A stretch of DNA of 34,585 nt from Deltaproteobacteria bacterium (GTDB taxonomy: Bacteria > Desulfobacterota > Binatia > UBA12015): positions 1-34,585 of the forward strand of contig JAJCZO010000269.1 in NCBI GenBank assembly GCA_029262355.1, read 5' to 3'. Shown in pieces: positions 3,155 to 21,293 of the stretch; the first letter of the stretch is position 1; the number at the start of each line of letters is the position of its first letter. The notes under the pieces are model-generated. The model had not been told where the DNA came from. It saw only the letters and a list, made by a program, of their open reading frames with translations, and ran no database searches. Both the position numbers and the translations under genes were made by a program.

Positions 3155-3352
3155 CTCCCAGACATCCTCCTCCGACGTGCCGGGCACGACGCTCGACTCC
3201 GGGTGTCGAGAGAGCCGTTCGGCTCGAAGATCCGGTTCCAGCGGGGGCGGCGTCGAACAGAACGTCTCGTCCGAACCGCCTTCGTGCGGGTCGACACTCA
3301 GTACGACGAACCAGTGCAACCGGGGCACGACGCCCCACGAAAGGACCATACG

Positions 3353-3739
3353 ATGAAGGGAATTCGAATCGCTACGATGATCGGCGGGGTCGTGCTCGCC
3401 TGCGCAGGCACCACGCACGCGGCGTTCCTCGCCACGGGCCCGCTGCGCCTGGACGACAACCCCGCCAACGGAACCATTCTCCAATGCGCGGCGGTGAATG
3501 TGGGCAACAAAGACATCGAGGTCGCGATCACCGCGACGCTCGAGGCCACCGATGTCCAGCCCCCCCAGGTCCTCGGCCCCGGTGAGTCGGCGAGCCTGTT
3601 CAACCTGAACTCAGGGCCCGGTTCGCGAGAGGGCTGGTGCCGATTCAATCTGGTGGCCGGCAAGAAGGCGCACCTGAAAGCGTCCGCCTGCGCGCTCGAT
3701 CAGAACAACAACTGCCGCGCGTATCTCCGCGCCAAGTAG
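3353..3739 (+). CDS. small secreted protein, tandem paralogue 1
   Basis: This 128-residue exported protein starts MKGIRIATMIGGVVLACAGTTHA and is probably cleaved before AFLATGP. AAAGGA lies about 8 nt upstream of the ATG, which supports this start over earlier in-frame starts. The mature domain contains CAAVNVGNKDIEVAITATL, a PGESASLFNLNSGP turn, GWCRF, GKKAHLKASACALD and a final NNCRAYLR. Its four cysteines are shared with the next gene. This is a single beta-sandwich-like domain family that I associate with deltaproteobacterial and Binatota-like secretomes; the function is unknown. It is co-directional with its paralogue 15 bp downstream, probably one transcript. Confidence 0.8.
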   Translation: MKGIRIATMIGGVVLACAGTTHAAFLATGPLRLDDNPANGTILQCAAVNVGNKDIEVAITATLEATDVQPPQVLGPGESASLFNLNSGPGSREGWCRFNLVAGKKAHLKASACALDQNNNCRAYLRAK

Positions 3740-3754
3740 AGAAGGAGAAAACTG

Positions 3755-4150
3755 ATGAATACTCTTCGTTCCTCGTTGGCCCTGGTGGCTCTGGTGGCTT
3801 TGGCAACCGGTGTCGCAGACACCGCACAGGCCGCCGCAACGCTCTCGACTGGCCCCGTGCGCGTAAGCGCCGACCCGGCTCACGGCGACCTCCTGCGTTG
3901 CGGAGCCGTCAATGTCGGCACGAAGGAGATCGAGGTCGTCATTACCGCCACCCTCGACGATACCTTCCAGAGCCCGCCACTGTTCGTTACGCCCGGCCAG
4001 ACCGCGACGATCTTCAACCCGAACTCGGGCCCGAGCTCGGCCAACGGCTTCTGCCGCTTCACCATAAAGGGAGGGAAGAAGAACGTCCGCGCCTCCGCGT
4101 GCGCGCTCGACCAGAACAACAACTGCCGCGCCGCCGCCGGTGCAGACTGA
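3755..4150 (+). CDS. small secreted protein, tandem paralogue 2
   Basis: This 131-residue protein has a signal peptide (MNTLRSSLALVALVALATGV then ADTAQA-A) and AAGGAG 7 nt before the ATG. The mature part aligns with the preceding gene almost without gaps: CGAVNVGTKEIEVVITATL, PGQTATIFNPNSGPSS, GFCRF, GGKKNVRASACALDQNNNCR. All four cysteines are kept. The two genes are a tandem duplication of one secreted domain, whose role is not known. A large hairpin (4182-4237) follows and probably ends the transcript. Confidence 0.8.
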   Translation: MNTLRSSLALVALVALATGVADTAQAAATLSTGPVRVSADPAHGDLLRCGAVNVGTKEIEVVITATLDDTFQSPPLFVTPGQTATIFNPNSGPSSANGFCRFTIKGGKKNVRASACALDQNNNCRAAAGAD

Positions 4151-5829: not shown

Positions 5830-8448
5830 TCAGAGCGATCGCAGAAACGCGAGGAGCGCCTGTCGATCCGGATCAGACATCGACGCGAAGGCTTCCCGGG
5901 CGCCGCGCCCTTCGCCTCCGTGCCAGAGAACGGCTTCCGCGAGGGTACGCGCTCGACCGTCGTGAAGGTAGGCCTCGCCGCCGCTCACGCCGGCGGTCAG
6001 GCCGATGCCCCATAGGGGCGGCGTGCGCCATTCCGCGCCCGAAGCATTTCCCTCCGGTAGGTTCGCGGCCAGACCGGGCCCCATGTCGTGCAGGAGGAGA
6101 TCCGTGTACGCATGGATGGTTTGGTCGGCGAGCTCCGCGAGCGGATGGAAGGGCGTGGTCACGAACGTGGGCGCATGACATCCGCCGCAGCCTGCATCGG
6201 TAAACAGCTCCTCGCCACGTTGCACCACCGGATCGTCCGCATGCCGGCGGGCCTGCATCCCGAGGAGCGCGAGGTACGCCACCAGATCGTCGAGGTCGGC
6301 GTCGTTCACTTCGCTGCCACCAACGCCACACCCCATCTGTGACGAGCCACAGTCGGGATCGGGAAACACGCGAGACGTCACGCCCATGTCGGTGCGGAAG
6401 GCGGCCGCCGCCTGATGCCGAATCGTCGCTTGCCCCGCCTTCCACCCGAAGCGACCGAGGCGGAGCGCCCCGGATTCGGGGTCGGTCACGACGCGGACGC
6501 GGCCGGAGATGCCGTCGGCGTCTTCGTCTTCGGGGTCCGCTCTCGCCACCACCGCGTCTTCGGGAATCGCCTCGAGCAATCCCAGGCCCACCAGCTGCGG
6601 AGCGATTCGCGCAGAGAAGTGGCTCGGGACCGGCCCCCCGAAGGCAAAGCGCGGCCGACGCAGGCCGCCTTCTTCGGTCCATCCTTCGAGGATTGCCTCG
6701 CCCTCGCCGGGCCCGCCCTCGCCGCGCGGCTGGAGCACCGCGCCGAGCAGTGGATCCGGGTTCCCCAGCGCGTCGCCGACGCGGACGACGAACCGATCCA
6801 ACGGTGCGCCGGGCGGCGGAGGCAGCGCACGGCCGTTGTTCGGGTGACACGCGGCGCACGACACGTCGATGTAGGAGGGGCCAACCTTCCCGGCCTGGCT
6901 CGACCACGCGGGGTTCGCCGCCGACTCGTCGTGCGATCCGTCCTCGAAGCTCGTGTGCTGGACGCGCCTTCCGCGAAGAAACGGCTGTGCATTCTGCGGC
7001 GCAAGATTCTGCGTCATCTGGAGGAAGAGGTTGTCCGGCTCGGCCGACTCGTTTCGGTGGACGGTGGTGGCTCCCCCAAGGAGGTCACGGGCCGCGATGC
7101 GCCGCGAGTCGCGCAAGGGGCCGCTTCCCTCCCACGGGACGAGCCCCTCTCCGACCACGTACAGCATCGTGGTCCCGTAATAGTTCTCGCGACCGCGCGG
7201 CGGAGAATCGAGGAACTGGCTCAGCTCGAACTCCATGGCGTCGCCGATGCGGATCGGTCGACCCTCAGTCGGGTTGTAGGACACGCTGTGCGTGTAGTTC
7301 CGATCATCGATCGGCGTCATCGAACGATTGTCGAAGTACTCGGCCACCGTATTCACGCCTCGAAAGAAGAGGCGAAGCTCCGCCTGACCGTCGTCGAGCT
7401 TCCACTGCGTCGTCACGTTGAAGGTGATGGTGGCCCCGCCCTTGGCGACTTCATCGACGATCTCGACCGCCGCGCTGCGATGCTCCCAGTAATGGCTCAG
7501 ATAATGCTCGTAGGACTGGAACTGGCTCTCGCGGGCATGTCGATCTCGCGCCCGGTCCGACCAGCGAGTGATGCGCGCGGTCGGGGTCTCGAAGGTGAGA
7601 GACGGCTCGAGCGCAGTGCTCCCGTCGTAAAGTGGGACGATGTTCTCGCAGGATTCGTTGGCAACATAGATGCACGATCCATTCTCACAGGCGTCGTCGG
7701 TGCAGAGATTTCCGTCCTCACAGTCACGGTCCTCGGCGCATGCGCTGCCGTCGTCGCAGTCGTTCGCCACTGCGCGACATCCAAGGGTCGGGTCGCAGAG
7801 GTCGTCGGTGCAGATGTCGTCATCGTCGCAGACGGGCCCTGTCCCACCGCGGCAGGTGGCATCGACGCAAGCCTCCGTACCGTTGCAGACGTCGGCGTCA
7901 TCACAATCGGCATCCATGGTGCAGATCGCGGGTGCCGGCGAGGGCGAGGGCGAGGGGCGCGGCGCACCGAGCTGGAGATAGTCGAGAGCGCCGATCCAAC
8001 CCTCCCCCGCACCGAGCAGGCACAGCTCGCCCACCCCCACCTGTGGTGAGATGCTGGTCGAGGCATCTCCACACGATCCGCTCCAAGGCCCTCCCGTGAC
8101 GCAGTTCGGGAGCGCGATGCGACCGACCACAGTGCCGCCGTACGTGACGTCGACCCCGTCGCCGTTCCCTTCTCCGTTGCTGTAGCGCACCGTGACTCTC
8201 GTGACGCCGCCCATCTCCACGTCGCGCCAACACACGGAATCCCCCGCGGAGTCCATCACCCCGCCGAAGCTTCGGGCGCGCATGCCCTCCTGCCTCCCGC
8301 TCTCGACCTCGAGTCGGGGCCCACTCTCCTTCGGGCAGGCTGCGACAACGATCGCGACGAGCGCGAGTCCGAAGCTTCTCCGGAATCGTGAGCTCGAGGA
8401 ATTGCATCTGGCTCGCCGGTGAGCCCGCGGTCGGTGGTGTGTGAGCAT
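5830..8448 (-). CDS. di-heme DHOR (DUF1111) lipoprotein with Cys-rich repeats
   Basis: This 872-residue lipoprotein has a basic N-terminus, hydrophobic FGLALVAIVV and lipobox VAAC with Cys38. Residues 60-160 look like a carbohydrate-binding-module-type beta domain (VTRVTVRYSNGEGNGDGVDV). A PSPSPSPAP linker follows, then Cys-rich repeats at 176-268 (CNGTEAC, CTDDLCD, CTDDACENGSC) like those in slime-mould and myxobacterial surface proteins. An unassigned region spans 270-500. The C-terminal 370 residues are a DHOR (di-heme oxidoreductase-like) domain with heme motifs CAACH (531-535) and CGGCH (754-758) and the family-typical LHDGRARTLAEAVLWHGGE. The protein is presumably an outer-membrane or periplasmic electron-transfer protein or peroxidase-like enzyme; the substrate is unknown. 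AAGGGA lies 6 nt before the ATG. It is far longer than the usual DHOR of about 450-500 residues because of the N-terminal modules. Confidence 0.87.
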   Translation of the reverse strand: MLTHHRPRAHRRARCNSSSSRFRRSFGLALVAIVVAACPKESGPRLEVESGRQEGMRARSFGGVMDSAGDSVCWRDVEMGGVTRVTVRYSNGEGNGDGVDVTYGGTVVGRIALPNCVTGGPWSGSCGDASTSISPQVGVGELCLLGAGEGWIGALDYLQLGAPRPSPSPSPAPAICTMDADCDDADVCNGTEACVDATCRGGTGPVCDDDDICTDDLCDPTLGCRAVANDCDDGSACAEDRDCEDGNLCTDDACENGSCIYVANESCENIVPLYDGSTALEPSLTFETPTARITRWSDRARDRHARESQFQSYEHYLSHYWEHRSAAVEIVDEVAKGGATITFNVTTQWKLDDGQAELRLFFRGVNTVAEYFDNRSMTPIDDRNYTHSVSYNPTEGRPIRIGDAMEFELSQFLDSPPRGRENYYGTTMLYVVGEGLVPWEGSGPLRDSRRIAARDLLGGATTVHRNESAEPDNLFLQMTQNLAPQNAQPFLRGRRVQHTSFEDGSHDESAANPAWSSQAGKVGPSYIDVSCAACHPNNGRALPPPPGAPLDRFVVRVGDALGNPDPLLGAVLQPRGEGGPGEGEAILEGWTEEGGLRRPRFAFGGPVPSHFSARIAPQLVGLGLLEAIPEDAVVARADPEDEDADGISGRVRVVTDPESGALRLGRFGWKAGQATIRHQAAAAFRTDMGVTSRVFPDPDCGSSQMGCGVGGSEVNDADLDDLVAYLALLGMQARRHADDPVVQRGEELFTDAGCGGCHAPTFVTTPFHPLAELADQTIHAYTDLLLHDMGPGLAANLPEGNASGAEWRTPPLWGIGLTAGVSGGEAYLHDGRARTLAEAVLWHGGEGRGAREAFASMSDPDRQALLAFLRSL

Positions 8449-15337: not shown

Positions 15338-16228
15338 ATGACGACCATCAGCAAGTGGTATGAGCGGTATCTTGCAGCCCACAACGTGCCCGGACTCGAG
15401 ATCCCGTTCACGGCGGTCAAGTTCTACGAGCGCGGCGCGGTCATACCGCCCGAGGTCCGCGCCATGGAGCCGACGGGGCTCACCCTCACGAGCTGTCAGG
15501 CCACGAAGCAGGCTTCGCTGGGCGACTCCGTCTGCCTGACGCGGGAGAACATCGGCTGCGTGGCGGCGGCGGTCAGCCTGGGGCTGGTCGATCAGCACCA
15601 GAACGAGCCGGTGGGGGACTCGCTGGTTTACACGGAGATCATGCGCGATCAGTCGGGCAAGGGCGACGGTTTCGTTCCGCCGAGCCCCGAGGACTTTACG
15701 TCGGGTCAGGTCTACGCCTGTGCCGCCGCTGGGCGCCCGGAGTTTGCCCTGTTCGGCGAGAGCGACACCGGCCGTTTCAAGGACGTCGCCACCGCGAAGC
15801 AGGCCGTCTCCGACATGATCGCAATCCAGCCGGCCACCATGCAGGCGGTCTTCCTGTACTCACTCGACTTCGACGATGTGGACGTGATCCCGGATGTGGT
15901 CGTGCTGAGCGTGCGCCCGGTCGAGCTCACGCGGCTGATTCAAGGATACGGCTTCGCCACCGGCAAGCGACTCAATGCGAGCATGGGCGGGCTGCGCATG
16001 GTCAACTCCGATTTGATCGCGCGTCCCTACCTCACCGGCGAGATCAACACCTCGCCCTACTGTCTGGGCGCGCGCCTGATCGCCCAGTTTGGACCCGATC
16101 GAATGGGCGTGGGCACGCCCTGGGATCAGTTCCAGCTGGTCGTCGAGGGCATGGAGACCTCCGCCGGCGGCTATCCCTTCCAGCTCTATCCGGGCGCCGA
16201 TCCAACCGCCGCCAGGACGAGAGTCTGA
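15338..16228 (+). CDS. DUF169 family protein
   Basis: This 296-residue protein shows the DUF169 (PF02596) signature: VKFYERGAVIPPEV, then SCQATKQASLGDSVCLTREN and IGCVAAAVSLGL. Further on come LTRLIQGYGFATGKR and SPYCLGARLIAQFGPDRMGV with GTPWDQFQLVVEGM. The cysteines in SCQ, IGC and SPYCLG are ones I associate with the family, which occurs in anaerobes, archaea and environmental bacteria and has no assigned function. There is no signal peptide, so it is cytoplasmic. The start at 15338 follows GAGGAG by 10 nt and fits the family N-terminus (KWYERYLAAHNVPGLEIPFT). The gene ends 2 bp before the desulfurase fusion, so the two are almost certainly one operon and may share sulfur chemistry (inference). 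Confidence 0.85.
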   Translation: MTTISKWYERYLAAHNVPGLEIPFTAVKFYERGAVIPPEVRAMEPTGLTLTSCQATKQASLGDSVCLTRENIGCVAAAVSLGLVDQHQNEPVGDSLVYTEIMRDQSGKGDGFVPPSPEDFTSGQVYACAAAGRPEFALFGESDTGRFKDVATAKQAVSDMIAIQPATMQAVFLYSLDFDDVDVIPDVVVLSVRPVELTRLIQGYGFATGKRLNASMGGLRMVNSDLIARPYLTGEINTSPYCLGARLIAQFGPDRMGVGTPWDQFQLVVEGMETSAGGYPFQLYPGADPTAARTRV

Positions 16229-16230
16229 GC

Positions 16231-17682
16231 ATGTCACTCGACGGTCTTACGCTTGCGATGGTCCACGAGATGTCGCGACGCAGTGGCACCGAACTCACTG
16301 CGCGTCACTACGAGTTGATCGAGTTCACCCACCGCTATCACGAGCGGCACCGAGTCGGACCACTGCTGCCCAACCTTCGTCGCCACACCGCCACAACCCA
16401 CGAGGAGCTGGAGTCGCTGTTCCCGTTCGGCCTGCACTCGCTGTACACGTGGGTGGGAGTTCCGATCCAAAGCCCCCATCACGGCTGCAAGCCGCTGGTA
16501 ACCATCGACGTAGAACACCCGCGCGAGGTCTACATGGATCACAGCGCGACGACCGAGCTGCGGCCGGAAGTGCTCGACTGCATGCGCCCGCTGCTCGAGG
16601 GCGACCAGAGCTTCGGCAACCCGGGCAGCAGCACGCACCTAGGCCGGATGGCGTTCGAAGCAGTCGACACGGCGCGCGCACAGCTCGCGGGCGCACTCGG
16701 AGTGCGCAGCGACGAACTAGTCTTCACCGGCTCTGGCTCGGAAGCCAACAACCTGGCCATCAAGGGCCTTCTCCTGCCGCGGCTACGAAGCGGTGTACAC
16801 GCGATCACCACGGCGATCGAGCACAGCTCCGTGCTCGAACCCCTTCGCTGGCTGGCGTCGTTGGGGCTCGAGCTCACCGAGCTGCCCTGCGACCGAAACG
16901 GGCTCGTCTCCGCCGACGACGTGCGCGCGGCGGTGCGCCCGAACACAGCCCTGGTTTCGGTAATGGCCGCGAACAACGAGATCGGCACGGTGAACCCGAT
17001 TGCCGAGATCGGCGAAGTATGCCGCGCGGCCGAGGTACCGTTCATGGTGGACGCCGTGCAAGCATTCGGAAAGCTGTCTCTGTCCCCGCGCGAAAACGGC
17101 ATCTCGCTGCTCAGCCTGTCCGGCCACAAGCTCCACGGCCCGAAGGGAGTGGGAGCACTCTTCATCGACGGCTCGCTCGAGCTCGCCCCGCTGTTGCACG
17201 GCGGAGGCCAGGAACGGGGGCTTCGCGCAGGGACCGAGAACGTCGCCTCGATCGCCGGGATGGGCGTCGCGGCCAAGTTGTCCAGCATCGAGCGCGAGCA
17301 CGAGACGGTACGCCTCGCCAAGCTTCGCGACGCGCTCCTTGCGCAGCTCCTCCGGGTCGAGCCCGAGCTCGTCGTCAACGGATCTCTGGAGCACCGCCTG
17401 CCACACAACCTCAGCGTGGGTTTCGAGGGAGTCGACAGCGGCTCGTTGCTGCTCAGTCTCAACGCGATCGGCGTCTACGTGTCCGCCGGTTCCGCGTGCC
17501 ACGCAGGTGCGGCGGAAGACTCGCACGTGATCCGTGCGCTGGGTCTCGACACCCGTCGATACGGCGTGCTGCGCTTCACCCTAGGCCGCCGCAACGACGA
17601 GGAGGACGTCGGCTACGTGGCGGACCACCTGGGTGAGATTCTGAACGCCTTGCGAGGGGAAGACCGCCGGCTGAGCGCCTGA
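16231..17682 (+). CDS. DsrC/TusE-like domain fused to cysteine desulfurase
   Basis: This 483-residue fusion protein has a DsrC/TusE-type sulfur-carrier domain at residues 20-89. ELTARHYELIEFTHRYHERH, P44, ELESLFPFG and VGVPIQSPHHGC align with the DsrC pattern ELTxxHWExIxFLRxYY...LFPxGP...GLPKPTGC. Cys86 matches the conserved C-terminal sulfur-carrying Cys; the second DsrC cysteine is replaced (Tyr72), as in TusE. After a 13-residue linker comes a complete NifS/IscS-type desulfurase. It has MDHSATT (102-108), FGNPGSS, FTGSGSEANNLAIKG, MAANNEIGTVNPI, VDAVQA (Asp274, Gln277), SGHKLHGPKG (PLP Lys300), GGGQERGLRAGTEN and SAGSACHAG (catalytic Cys423). The reaction is Cys to Ala plus persulfide (family knowledge); passage of sulfur to Cys86 in cis is inference. 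It lies 2 bp after the DUF169 gene. Confidence 0.85.
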   Translation: MSLDGLTLAMVHEMSRRSGTELTARHYELIEFTHRYHERHRVGPLLPNLRRHTATTHEELESLFPFGLHSLYTWVGVPIQSPHHGCKPLVTIDVEHPREVYMDHSATTELRPEVLDCMRPLLEGDQSFGNPGSSTHLGRMAFEAVDTARAQLAGALGVRSDELVFTGSGSEANNLAIKGLLLPRLRSGVHAITTAIEHSSVLEPLRWLASLGLELTELPCDRNGLVSADDVRAAVRPNTALVSVMAANNEIGTVNPIAEIGEVCRAAEVPFMVDAVQAFGKLSLSPRENGISLLSLSGHKLHGPKGVGALFIDGSLELAPLLHGGGQERGLRAGTENVASIAGMGVAAKLSSIEREHETVRLAKLRDALLAQLLRVEPELVVNGSLEHRLPHNLSVGFEGVDSGSLLLSLNAIGVYVSAGSACHAGAAEDSHVIRALGLDTRRYGVLRFTLGRRNDEEDVGYVADHLGEILNALRGEDRRLSA

Positions 17683-17691
17683 GCGCTCAGC
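17670..17691. terminator. hairpin across two convergent stop codons
   Basis: GCTGAGCG (17670-17677) pairs with CGCTCAGC (17684-17691) over a 6-nt loop. The stem lies within the 3' ends of the desulfurase gene (stop at 17682, +) and the AraC gene (stop at 17687, -). It could serve as a shared bidirectional terminator; no T-run is present. Confidence 0.45.
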
Positions 17692-18706
17692 TTCGGTGGG
17701 CGGCGCGCAGCGTATGCGACGGAGGCACTCCGTATTTTCGGCGGTATGCATTCGAGAAATGTCCGAGGTGAGCAAACCCATACCGAAGGGCGATCTGCCC
17801 GACCGTCGCCTCCTCGGGGCTTGCGCCCTTCAGGTCGGCGTGCGCGCGCTCGAGGCGCAACCACTTCAGGTAGGCCATGGGCGAGGTCCCGCGGAAACGT
17901 CGAAAGCCTCCATAGAGGGCGCGCGCGCTGACCCCCGAAGCCGCGACCAGCTCTTCCATGCTGATCGACTCGCTGGCGTGAGCGTGCATGTAGTCTTCCG
18001 CGCGACGCACGTAGAACGGCGCCGCGGCCGAGACGCCCTCGCGAAGGAGCGCGCTGTAGTTGTGTGGCTGGAGCGAGAGCAACATCGCCTTGGTCATACG
18101 CGAAGCCTCGCTCAGCAGGAGCGGCGCCACTGCGAAAGTACCGTTCAGGGCATTGGTCCATAGGTGCTCCACATAGCCCCACCAGGCGCGGCCGGCATCG
18201 GTGTCGGCGGGCAACGGGAACTCGAAGTGCACGGGCGCCCTGAGGTCGCGGTCGAGCCAGGTCGAGAGCTGGCGCTCGAGAGACTCACGCTCGAGGCGCA
18301 CGACTCGGAACTGGAGATTCGGCGTGAATCCGCGAATCAAGTTCGCGCGGTCCATGGACAGCACCGCCCCACGCGGGGGACCGCCGCTGATGTAGTCGTC
18401 GCCGTTGCGCACCTCGAGCTCACCCTTGAGCGGCCGCCCAATCATGAAGATGGGCTCCGGAACCGTCTGCTCGATCTCTACCGGCTCCGCAAACTCGACA
18501 TAGTTCACGGAGACGTCGCCCACCGAGACGGCACGGAGCACCGTGTCGACATGCTGCGCACGTCCCTCGACCTTGAGAACGTGCTCCGTGAAGTGATTCC
18601 CCAGAAAGTCGCGCACCCGCGCGACGTCGCCCGAGTGGAACTGCGTAATCTCCGGTCTCGCCGACAGGGGTGCGACGGGATCGAATTCCGGCCACGACTG
18701 CCCCAT
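17687..18706 (-). CDS. AraC family transcriptional regulator
   Basis: This 339-residue regulator has an N-terminal ligand-binding region of the AraC_binding_2 type (about 40-200, with VSVNYVEFAEPVEIEQTV and FMIGRPLKGELEV). The C-terminal tandem helix-turn-helix domain spans about 230-335: EDYMHAHASESISMEELVAA and SGVSARALYGGFRRFRGTSP, then MAYLKWLRLERAHADL and VGQIALRYGFAHLGHFSNAY, RRKYGVPPS. AGGTGA lies shortly before the ATG. It converges on the DUF169-desulfurase operon with only 4 bp between the stops, so it may regulate that operon, but position alone does not show this. The ligand is unknown. Confidence 0.9.
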   Translation of the reverse strand: MGQSWPEFDPVAPLSARPEITQFHSGDVARVRDFLGNHFTEHVLKVEGRAQHVDTVLRAVSVGDVSVNYVEFAEPVEIEQTVPEPIFMIGRPLKGELEVRNGDDYISGGPPRGAVLSMDRANLIRGFTPNLQFRVVRLERESLERQLSTWLDRDLRAPVHFEFPLPADTDAGRAWWGYVEHLWTNALNGTFAVAPLLLSEASRMTKAMLLSLQPHNYSALLREGVSAAAPFYVRRAEDYMHAHASESISMEELVAASGVSARALYGGFRRFRGTSPMAYLKWLRLERAHADLKGASPEEATVGQIALRYGFAHLGHFSNAYRRKYGVPPSHTLRAAHRS

Positions 18707-19127
18707 TCGTATTCACCTCGCCTCCTTGGCGGGTCGGGCCAAGGTTCGGGCCGCAACGCCACGACTTGTGGGGAACGTATCGCCAACGTCACGCTGGAGT
18801 CCAGCGAGAGTGGAGCCTCTTGTCGACCGAGCGTTCGACTCAGATCGCACCGCCCTCTTCTCAATTCGACGCGACGTCCTCACTCGGGCGCCCCGCCCGA
18901 TCGCTCGGTCGCGCATACGCGACCAACCAAGGGGCAGCCCAAATTGCCGATTCCCGGCGATCAGCGATCTTGGGGTCAGCCGATTCGCCACACCCGAGCA
19001 GAAGTTACGACAAGTCAGCAGACCCGCCCGGTTCTCCGAGACCGGCCCGCGCTGCCAGCTGCTGGAGAGCAGAACCTCGACGGGAAACGCCGTACACACC
19101 TCTCGCGCCGTATGGCATACCTACGCC
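18707..19127. other. divergent intergenic region
   Basis: About 420 bp lie between the AraC-type gene (-) and the astacin gene (+). The plus frame is open from 18726 into the astacin gene, but its residues are Arg/Pro-rich without a recognised domain, so I treat it as non-coding. I see no clear promoter hexamers or dyads. Confidence 0.4.
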
Positions 19128-21293
19128 ATGCCTAGGACTCTGCGCGTGGCCCCGCTCTTCGCCCTCGTCATCTCGCTGCCATCGCTAGCCGACGCGCAGA
19201 GTGCCCCGTTCATCTCCACGGACCCGGCGGTGGTCTGCACCACTCTCGAAGTCGTGGGCGGCGTCGCGTTGTTCGAGGGCGACATCGCGGTGGGCGAGTG
19301 CGAGGAGTTGGCGGGCGGCGGCTGGGAATTCCGCCCAGCCGGGGAGCTTGGGCGATCCCTGGTCGGTGCAGCGCCAGATGAGCCCGCGGATCTCAAGGAC
19401 GTCGATCCGAGCGCCGGAGTGAAGAGGCAGCTGGCGCGCCGGTGGCCTGATGGAATCGTTCCGTACGAGATCGACGAGACCCTGTCCGACTCCGCGGCCC
19501 CGGACGTCTACGAGGACATTCGCGAGGCGATCCGACATTGGGCGGACGGCACCTTCGTGCGTCTCGTACCGCGATCCGACGAGGCGGCGTACGTTCGCTT
19601 CCGCGCCTCACCCAGCTCCTGCTCTTCGTCGCTCGGAAGGCTCGGCGGGCTGCAGGACATCAACCTGATCGGGTCGGGAGCTTGCGGGTTCGGCGCCACG
19701 GTCCACGAGATCGGGCACGCGGTGGGCTTCTTCCACGAACAGTCGCGTACCGACCGAGACGCCTACATCACCATCAACTTCGCGAACATCTCGCCTGGGC
19801 ACGAGCACAACTTCAGGATGTACTCGCCCTTCGGCGGCATCGATGTAGGGCTCTACGACTACGGCTCGATCATGCACTACTCGTCCACCGGCTTCAGTTC
19901 GAACGGGCTCGCTACGATCGACGTGGACCCAGTGCAGCTCGCCGCGTACCAGGCGATCTACGGAGACGTAAACATCGGAAATCGAGCCGGCTTGAGCATC
20001 CTCGACCGTGCGGCGGTCCAGGACGTCATGAACACCTGCTACGCTGGGGCGCCTGCGAATGGAGCTTACTGGGCGACCTCCCCCTGGAGCGCCTGCTCGG
20101 CGAGCTGCGGCAACCCAGGCCAGACCCGTGTGGTATCGTGTCATCGACGCGACGGCGTCTGCTCGGACGACGACGTGTGTTCTGGGCTCGCGAAGCCGGC
20201 GGACCAGCGGTCATGCGATCCGTTCGTCGCAGAGAACTTCGAGCTCGGCCCCGGCGCATGGGACACGCTCGGCACGCAGGACGAGTTCGACTGGACGTTC
20301 GGAATCCGCGGCACGCCCTCCTTCGCCACCGGTCCAACGAGCGACCATACTCTCGGGAACGGCAACGACGGCTGGTACGCGTTCATCGAGGCCAGCTCGC
20401 CGCGGCTCTTCGGAGACGAGGCGCACCTGACGTCGGCCCCGTTCGTAGTACCCGCATCGGGCGCCCCTGCGATGAGCTTCTGGTACCATACGCAAGGCTC
20501 CGGAATCGCACCTGGTTCGCTCGAGGTCGAAGTCACGACCACGCCGTGCGCGGGCGCGCCGGCGACGTCGGTCCTCTGGAGTGCGGACGGGACGAGCACG
20601 AGCGAGTGGCGGCAGGCGTCCGTCTCCTTATCCGCGTACACCGGGATGGATGTGCAGCTCCGCTTCGTCGGCACGGTGACGTCGACCAGCAGTGACGTCG
20701 CGTTGGACGACATCGACTTCCACGTCGGGTGCGGCGCGGCACCCGACCCCTCGTGCGACACCTCGTGGGGCAGCGCCTCGCTGGTCGTCAAGGAGGACAA
20801 GGTCGGCAAAGAGAAGATCGCGGTGACGCTCGCGAAGGGCCCGGCGTTGACACAATCGGACCTCGGGACGCCACTAGACGCGCCGGGGACGACCTACACC
20901 TTGTGCGTGTTCGATGCCGCGGACGGCTTGGTCGCCGAACTGACGGCGGGCCGAGCCTCGACCCTCTGCGGCGATCGCGATTGTTGGCGGGCGCTCGGGG
21001 CATTGCCGCCGGAGGGCACGGGATACCTTTACAAGGACAAGGAGCGTTCGGCCGACGGCATCCGTCTCATCAAGTTGCGGGGCGGACCGGCCGGCAAGTC
21101 ATCGATCGTGGTCCGCGGCTCCAACAATACGGCGCGCGGATACGACGGCCTGCCGACGGGGCTTGCGGCCTCGCTCAGCGGATCCCCGGGTGCAACCGTG
21201 GAGCTTCACGGCGACAACTTGGAGGGCTGCTTCGCAGCCCACATGGACGAGGTGCGAACCGATACGGGAGACCTGTTCAAGGCAAAGAAGTGA
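19128..21293 (+). CDS. secreted astacin metalloprotease with TSP1 and MAM domains
   Basis: This 721-residue protein starts with a signal peptide, MPRTLRVAPLFALVISLPSL then ADAQ. Residues about 105-305 form an astacin (M12A) zinc protease domain. It has VHEIGHAVGFFHEQSRTDRD with zinc ligands His193, His197 and His203 and catalytic Glu194, then the Met-turn SIMHY (247-251). Next is a thrombospondin type 1 repeat (314-363: WATSPWSACSASCGNPGQTR, with further Cys) and a MAM-like domain (368-536: ENFELGPGAWDT, TGPTSDHTLGNGNDGWYAFI, MSFWYHTQG). Residues 541-721 carry a C-terminal beta-rich domain (YTLCVFDAADG, GYLYKDKERSADGIRLIKLR, GCFAAHMDEV) that I recognise from other deltaproteobacterial-type secreted proteins. 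A region of about 80 residues before the protease may be a propeptide. The start was chosen by the signal peptide; no strong ribosome-binding site is visible. Confidence 0.9.
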   Translation: MPRTLRVAPLFALVISLPSLADAQSAPFISTDPAVVCTTLEVVGGVALFEGDIAVGECEELAGGGWEFRPAGELGRSLVGAAPDEPADLKDVDPSAGVKRQLARRWPDGIVPYEIDETLSDSAAPDVYEDIREAIRHWADGTFVRLVPRSDEAAYVRFRASPSSCSSSLGRLGGLQDINLIGSGACGFGATVHEIGHAVGFFHEQSRTDRDAYITINFANISPGHEHNFRMYSPFGGIDVGLYDYGSIMHYSSTGFSSNGLATIDVDPVQLAAYQAIYGDVNIGNRAGLSILDRAAVQDVMNTCYAGAPANGAYWATSPWSACSASCGNPGQTRVVSCHRRDGVCSDDDVCSGLAKPADQRSCDPFVAENFELGPGAWDTLGTQDEFDWTFGIRGTPSFATGPTSDHTLGNGNDGWYAFIEASSPRLFGDEAHLTSAPFVVPASGAPAMSFWYHTQGSGIAPGSLEVEVTTTPCAGAPATSVLWSADGTSTSEWRQASVSLSAYTGMDVQLRFVGTVTSTSSDVALDDIDFHVGCGAAPDPSCDTSWGSASLVVKEDKVGKEKIAVTLAKGPALTQSDLGTPLDAPGTTYTLCVFDAADGLVAELTAGRASTLCGDRDCWRALGALPPEGTGYLYKDKERSADGIRLIKLRGGPAGKSSIVVRGSNNTARGYDGLPTGLAASLSGSPGATVELHGDNLEGCFAAHMDEVRTDTGDLFKAKK

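Follow-up and report, generated by a model that had tools for sequence, protein, structure and literature searches.

An intact open reading frame in the window (the 34,585-nucleotide stretch of DNA that was analysed as a whole) encodes a 483 aa protein in which a DsrC/TusE-type domain is joined to a complete NifS/IscS-type cysteine desulfurase (Table 1). This architecture, put forward in an earlier note on the same DNA, was upheld by profile searches and by five further fusions from other genomes. A gene for a DUF169 protein is located directly upstream in all five loci for which upstream DNA is available, and this adjacency suggests a self-contained sulfur-delivery pair. A chance open reading frame or an assembly artefact was rejected as an explanation, because the same gene order recurs in a complete genome and in three more loci, all besides the window.

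Table 1. Features of the fusion locus, with positions numbered from the first base of the window.
Feature	Position	Strand	Evidence
DUF169 (PF02596) protein, 296 aa, partner gene	15338..16228	+	Pfam 118.8 bits
DsrC-like / NifS-like fusion, 483 aa	16231..17682	+	ORF, Pfam, NCBIfam, alignment of 6 fusions
DsrC/TusE-type domain, residues 1-89, without the N-terminal DsrC segment	16231..16497	+	PF04358 25.9 bits (residues 1-95), PDB DsrC chains, hhalign, alignment
Cys86 codon, counterpart of the last DsrC/TusE cysteine; Lys87 next, invariant in fusions	16486..16488	+	6/6 fusions; 11/11 aligned
NifS/IscS-type cysteine desulfurase domain, residues 98-475	16522..17655	+	TIGR03402 413.7 bits; Foldseek
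Lys300 codon, presumed PLP lysine by motif	17128..17130	+	invariant 6/6
Cys423 codon, presumed catalytic-loop cysteine by motif	17497..17499	+	invariant 6/6
AraC-family regulator, convergent with the fusion	17687..18706	-	PF14525 + HTH_18

The two domains of the fusion protein

When residues 1-95 were scanned alone, as the earlier note had proposed, a DsrC match was obtained with PF04358 (25.9 bits, cut-off 24.9, E 1.5e-5) over residues 9-68 and profile positions 24-90. On the whole fusion protein the same profile scored 21.7 bits, under the cut-off, and TIGR03342 scored 23.2 bits against a cut-off of 53.5. A DsrC assignment from the window protein by itself would be borderline, because the Pfam threshold is passed by residues 1-95 only and TIGR03342 is below its own. 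The five fusions from other genomes make the assignment firm at the level of sequence. The N-termini of five of the six fusions (window and four others) were scanned alone with PF04358, and four pass (25.9, 37.4, 28.9 and 34.9 bits) while the fifth fails at 22.9 bits. A profile built from four N-termini ranked seven solved DsrC-family chains first in the PDB, from 2xsj_C (E 2.4e-8) to 1sau_A (E 0.0025), and a profile-profile comparison by hhalign, with N-termini of five fusions on one side and five stand-alone proteins of the DsrC family on the other, gave 98.3% over columns 3-69. The DsrC profile begins to match at position 24 in the window fusion and at positions 19-23 in the four others, leaving the first 18 to 23 positions missing. 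The DsrC/TusE pattern described in the earlier note stands as to the presence of the domain but not as to its extent, since about the first 20 profile positions, which make up the N-terminal DsrC segment, are missing. Together with features of the alignment, these missing positions point to a shortened, TusE-like relative of DsrC. The domain was filed neither as TusE nor as DsrC, because its cysteine is not in the penultimate position and the N-terminal segment is absent.

The DsrC profile matches all end before Cys86, and the equivalence of this residue comes from a multiple alignment of the six fusions and the five stand-alone proteins, in which the last DsrC cysteine aligns with Cys86 in 11/11. 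H26, P44, L63, F64, P65, G67, G76 and C86 are invariant in all 11 sequences, which places the LFPxG motif and the conserved glycine before the arm in the N-terminal domain (L63, F64, P65, G67 and G76), and P78 is kept in 10. The column of the second DsrC cysteine (CysB) is occupied by an invariant Tyr72 in all six fusions and by Cys in four of the five stand-alone proteins, with Arg in the fifth. The single TusE-like cysteine predicted earlier is thus borne out, as is a 3-residue insertion before it, the loop being three residues longer than in DsrC. Cys86 lies inside the chain, with Asp103 of the desulfurase 17 residues further on. The other five fusions are 48-54% identical to the window protein, and Cys86, Lys87, Lys300 and Cys423 are invariant in all six. 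Six columns carry cysteine either in the window protein or in three or more of the fusions; of these, columns 86 and 423 alone have it in every fusion, and column 264 has it in five. Residues 80-85, beside the invariant Cys86, vary with four to five letters each.

The remainder of the protein matches aminotransferase class V (Aminotran_5, PF00266) at 226.4 bits, in agreement with the intact desulfurase read by the earlier note. Lys300 and Cys423, which that note had named, are present, and we take them by motif to be the PLP lysine and the catalytic-loop cysteine. NifS TIGR03402 scored 413.7 bits over residues 100-475, under its equivalog cut-off of 530.75. Each of the 25 NCBIfam models listed leaves the desulfurase below the curated cut-off, with the best family scores going to NifS/IscS types. 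A Foldseek search with the predicted structure of the fusion returned human NFS1 (6wih_A, E 1.8e-42) and E. coli IscS (1p3w_A, E 3.0e-40), and all 50 matches listed are to the desulfurase part (NFS1, IscS, NifS and selenocysteine lyases).

This predicted structure reaches a mean pLDDT of 88.1 and a pTM of 0.79, and residues 80-86 and 422-428 fall below 50. Low values at these two places would fit two mobile loops, although at 80-86 they may only reflect the alignment, in which 2 of 33 rows cover the N-terminal domain. Residues 5-75 are helical in the whole-protein model, built from the same 2/33 rows for this domain.

When 40 desulfurase domains were placed in an unrooted tree, those of the six fusions formed one side of one branch (support 100/100, recovered in all 200 bootstrap trees). 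The 34 non-fusion domains were drawn from the 79 other loci of the scan of genome contigs; further NifS copies from the fusion genomes are represented in it by one Scalindua locus (L066). A second origin of the fusion would not be needed to explain this unrooted tree.

Distribution and genomic context

Fusions were found in the window's own genome, in Desulfoluna limicola [NZ_AP024488.1] (L010), and in four genomes designated G018, G259, G446 and G1205. The D. limicola genome is complete, and its locus matches the window protein over residues 10-476 in the scan of genome contigs, from which 80 loci were kept; a profile of four fusion N-termini found the N-terminal domain to be absent from the remaining loci of those 80. 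G446 is the genome of a Candidatus Scalindua contig, and the fusion is located there in a 480 aa frame. G1205 was the one positive among 297 genomes in the phylum of an Acidobacteria contig. Further samples gave 1/294 (the Scalindua genome itself) and 1/17 (G259 itself). No match was found in 398 genomes in the phylum of a Burkholderiales assembly, a search with no known positive in the group that shows little.

A search of 58 genomes gave matches in 8 at E 0.001, strong only in the window's own genome and G018. Among 395 genomes of the phylum 201 match at E 0.001, three of them strongly (G018, the window's own and G259; E 5.4e-36 or better). None of the remaining matches listed exceeds 37.3 bits; their open frames range from 105 to 260 aa and are mostly of stand-alone DsrC/TusE size. 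The frames that contain the DsrC-family matches at G328:C5:296108-296296 and G108:C1:160464-160652 (260 and 238 aa) exceed the length of stand-alone DsrC and may encode other fusions. In viral contigs, searches for the fusion N-terminus, the DUF169 partner and DsrC yielded no relatives, and plasmids matched neither the DUF169 partner nor residues 1-100 of the fusion. The DUF169-fusion pair is patchily distributed.

At least one other NifS-type gene is present in each of the six fusion genomes, and the fusion is therefore probably an accessory desulfurase. It is the sole PF04358 match in the window's genome and likewise in G446; Desulfoluna has an additional 114 aa DsrC frame. TusB/DsrH (PF04077) was found in none of the six at E 0.001, in a search where E. 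coli, Thermotoga maritima and Methanosarcina acetivorans, among 14 controls, match; the window assembly is rated 92.9% complete, and completeness is given for three of the six genomes.

The AraC-family gene downstream of the fusion is a possible regulator of the pair. Its product shares 55% identity over 322 aa with that of an AraC gene beside the G018 pair (L121, 2953-3987), where the gene order differs. In G018, a frame predicting a PALP (pyridoxal-phosphate dependent enzyme) and a rhodanese on one chain (L121, 1572-2906) adjoins this AraC gene and the pair. Neither AraC nor PALP-rhodanese was recognised by eye at the other pair loci.

Elsewhere in the window, the frame at 18726-21293 (+) predicts a single protein in which an astacin protease domain is combined with thrombospondin type 1 and MAM domains, a layout reminiscent of extracellular proteases of animals. 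The adjoining frames at 3203-3739 and 3755-4150 (+) encode small proteins that are alike by eye, the second without a Pfam match. An 872 aa frame at 5830-8448 (-) matches di-haem oxidoreductase/cytochrome c at 612-872, and its long N-terminal part has no Pfam match.

The DUF169 partner

The partner gene in the window starts with an ATG at 15338 behind gaggag and stops with the TGA at 16226-16228, 2 bases before the ATG of the fusion gene, and its Pfam score stands against a cut-off of 27. Over the five loci with upstream DNA, the spacing ranges from -7 to +17 bases, with overlaps of 4 bases in G018 and 7 bases in Desulfoluna and gaps of 17 bases in G259 and 5 bases in G1205. The G446 contig ends at the start of the fusion gene and hence falls outside this count. 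A profile of four partners was run against 13 genomes and, at E 1e-5, gave a single match in each of four, which are the ones among the 13 known to hold the pair. This search excluded G1205. Of the nine genomes without a match, one is G446; six of the rest (G001-G003, G024, G030 and G340) had been tested for absence of the fusion, the other two being G743 and G744. G446, where the contig ends at the fusion start, has the fusion and no DUF169 of the partner subfamily by this profile search.

Cysteines 53, 74, 128 and 242 are invariant in the five partners, which were compared with 26 other members of the family (26 of 30 loci gave a match; long-branch rows included). Cys53 is common to all 26 others. 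Cys242 is present in 20, and Cys74 in 11, the remaining 15 carrying a cysteine three columns on. Position 223 is Asn in all five partners, whereas all 26 others have Cys; conversely, Cys128 (5/5) and Cys66 (4/5) of the partners are found in none of the 26. The five partners group together in a tree of the family, which carries long-branch warnings. By these alignments, the partners belong to a DUF169 subfamily whose cysteine set is altered.

DUF169 is found in 100 of 148 genomes of the phylum at E 1e-10, and no solved relative was found by sequence (best E 0.17). Among 53 proteins scanned from the neighbourhoods of other DUF169 genes (from 71 frames, some of them DUF169 itself), nine have PHP domains, and no sulfur theme is seen among the 25 families listed of 56. 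In one locus (L141, 739-2169), a scan found DUF169 fused to the dephospho-CoA kinase CoaE. The family at large gives no clear sulfur link, because other DUF169 genes of the phylum either form such CoaE fusions or have neighbours of various kinds. Frames in L150, L157 and L159 look by eye like the DUF169-CoaE frame of L141, such frames being about 470-510 aa. In passages of published work, a DUF169 gene is listed among the STRING partners of the selenium-linked YedE (PMC5322559), DUF169 is at times beside SepRS in archaea (PMC8762117), and in a nitrate fitness table the locus numbers of a Desulfovibrio DUF169 gene and a TauE-like gene differ by one (PMC4001038); these passages give no function for DUF169.

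Sulfur delivery and comparison with known systems

In the scheme that we favour, at roughly an even chance, the two genes are a dedicated sulfur-delivery pair in which cysteine sulfur would pass to Cys423, then to Cys86 and then to DUF169. The NifS-type domain would strip sulfur from L-cysteine with PLP on Lys300 and keep it as a persulfide on the loop Cys423; loading of the catalytic cysteine by PLP chemistry on cysteine is established for the desulfurase family. The tethered DsrC/TusE-type domain would take the persulfide onto Cys86, within one chain or within a dimer, and Cys86 would offer it to a single dedicated partner. This would be the DUF169 protein encoded upstream, which would dock and act as acceptor. 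The tether would do in one chain the work of the separate carriers of the Tus relay. We infer delivery to DUF169 from gene order and co-occurrence. The scheme builds on the architecture, its conservation in six genomes, the single branch of the desulfurase tree, the invariant Cys86, Cys423 and Lys300, the DUF169 neighbour, the other NifS copies and the lack of TusB/DsrH in the six genomes. Two precedents, as far as the passages concerned go, make it plausible: A. vinosum DsrC binds sulfur solely on the penultimate Cys111 in tests with IscS and cysteine or with sulfide, two donors that the passage does not separate (PMC3397948), and a naturally occurring fusion of a desulfurase with a rhodanese is a bifunctional enzyme that carries out transpersulfidation with cysteine as the source (PMC8931425). 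Cys86 is internal and not beside a free C-terminus as in DsrC, and this may limit its reach.

The DsrC-like domain could instead be only a docking arm that takes the desulfurase to DUF169, with Cys423 itself giving sulfur to DUF169 for maturation of an Fe-S cluster or another cofactor and Cys86 serving in structure or redox chemistry. Dedicated Fe-S proteins are among the clients of NifS-type enzymes, and several invariant cysteines in the partners (53, 74, 128 and 242) would suit a metal or Fe-S protein. However, Cys86 is invariant amid a variable linker and stands at the sulfur-carrying position of DsrC, and a docking arm alone is the less likely reading. The earlier note had framed the fusion as a shortcut of the E. 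coli Tus relay, and this is not supported as stated: TusB/DsrH, the part of the relay that was searched for, is found in 0/6 fusion genomes, and the likeliest sulfur recipient is the upstream DUF169 protein, a neighbour that the note does not mention. A related reading, in which Cys86 feeds MnmA directly for tRNA 2-thiouridine and replaces TusABCD-TusE, would accommodate the single TusE-like cysteine and the same TusB/DsrH result. It is nevertheless improbable, as the modification is near-universal whereas the gene is patchy (three strong matches in 395 genomes of the phylum, the window's own included), and the constant neighbour is DUF169.

Handling of selenium or another chalcogen, with the fusion as a selenocysteine-lyase-like donor, finds some encouragement in the STRING link to YedE (PMC5322559, as far as the passage goes); against it, SelD, SelA and YedE were not recognised among the 18 window proteins scanned with Pfam and the best family scores are to NifS/IscS types, making such a role very improbable. 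That the N-terminal part is a generic helix-turn-helix resembling DsrC by chance is barely credible. The borderline Pfam score and the missing DsrC N-terminal segment would agree with it, and homeodomain-only proteins are the next, weak PDB matches of the four-sequence profile (E 0.054 and 0.19), but they rank behind seven DsrC-family chains, and the residues from H26 to C86 listed above are invariant in 11/11.

A more specific proposal, in our estimation unlikely, extends the sulfur-delivery pair to an undescribed sulfur-insertion machine, in which Cys53, Cys74 and Cys242 of DUF169 would hold a [4Fe-4S] cluster with an open iron that is fed directly by the Cys86 persulfide, so that two proteins would lead from cysteine to a new thiolated product. 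In some tRNA-thiolating enzymes three cysteines bind a [4Fe-4S] cluster with one open iron, and the proposal builds on the Asn at 223, where the 26 others have Cys, and on the three kept cysteines.

The Tus and Dsr relays depend on a separate sulfurtransferase to load a free-standing protein of the DsrC family. If the sulfur-delivery scheme is true, a desulfurase with its own DsrC-type arm would provide a direct route from cysteine to carrier. DUF169, an uncharacterised family common in the phylum, gains a link to sulfur transfer that is open to testing. The pair can be tested in Desulfoluna limicola, since this named strain has it in its complete genome.

Like the TusE/DsrC family (PF04358, TIGR03342), the N-terminal domain has LFPxG, the last cysteine and the glycine that precedes the arm, together with a predicted helical core. 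It is TusE-like in having no second cysteine, as is usual in organisms without DsrAB according to a rule given in a passage of PMC3397948. Unlike TusE and DsrC, it has no N-terminal segment, its loop to the cysteine is 3 residues longer, the cysteine is internal and tethered to a desulfurase, and Cys-Lys takes the place of Cys-x-end. The desulfurase is a complete domain with the lysine and loop cysteine of NifS/IscS types (TIGR03402, TIGR02006), but has an extra N-terminal domain, forms its own branch and scores below the curated cut-offs. The partner shares Cys53 with DUF169/COG2043 (PF02596) and differs in Asn223 and Cys128. The E. coli Tus relay (IscS, TusA, TusBCD, TusE and MnmA) likewise combines a cysteine desulfurase with a DsrC-family carrier, but as separate proteins with TusBCD between them. 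The earlier note knew of no described protein with this layout, and no description of a DsrC-type domain fused to a desulfurase was found in the titles and abstract openings listed by searches of open-access literature. Natural desulfurase-rhodanese (CD-Rhd) fusions, such as that of Pseudorhodoferax (PMC8931425), also carry donor and sulfur acceptor on one chain, but the acceptor is a rhodanese domain rather than an N-terminal DsrC-type domain, and the passage on them mentions no DUF169 partner. A desulfurase fused to a sulfur acceptor is therefore of a known kind, and the DsrC-type variant with a DUF169 partner appears to be new.
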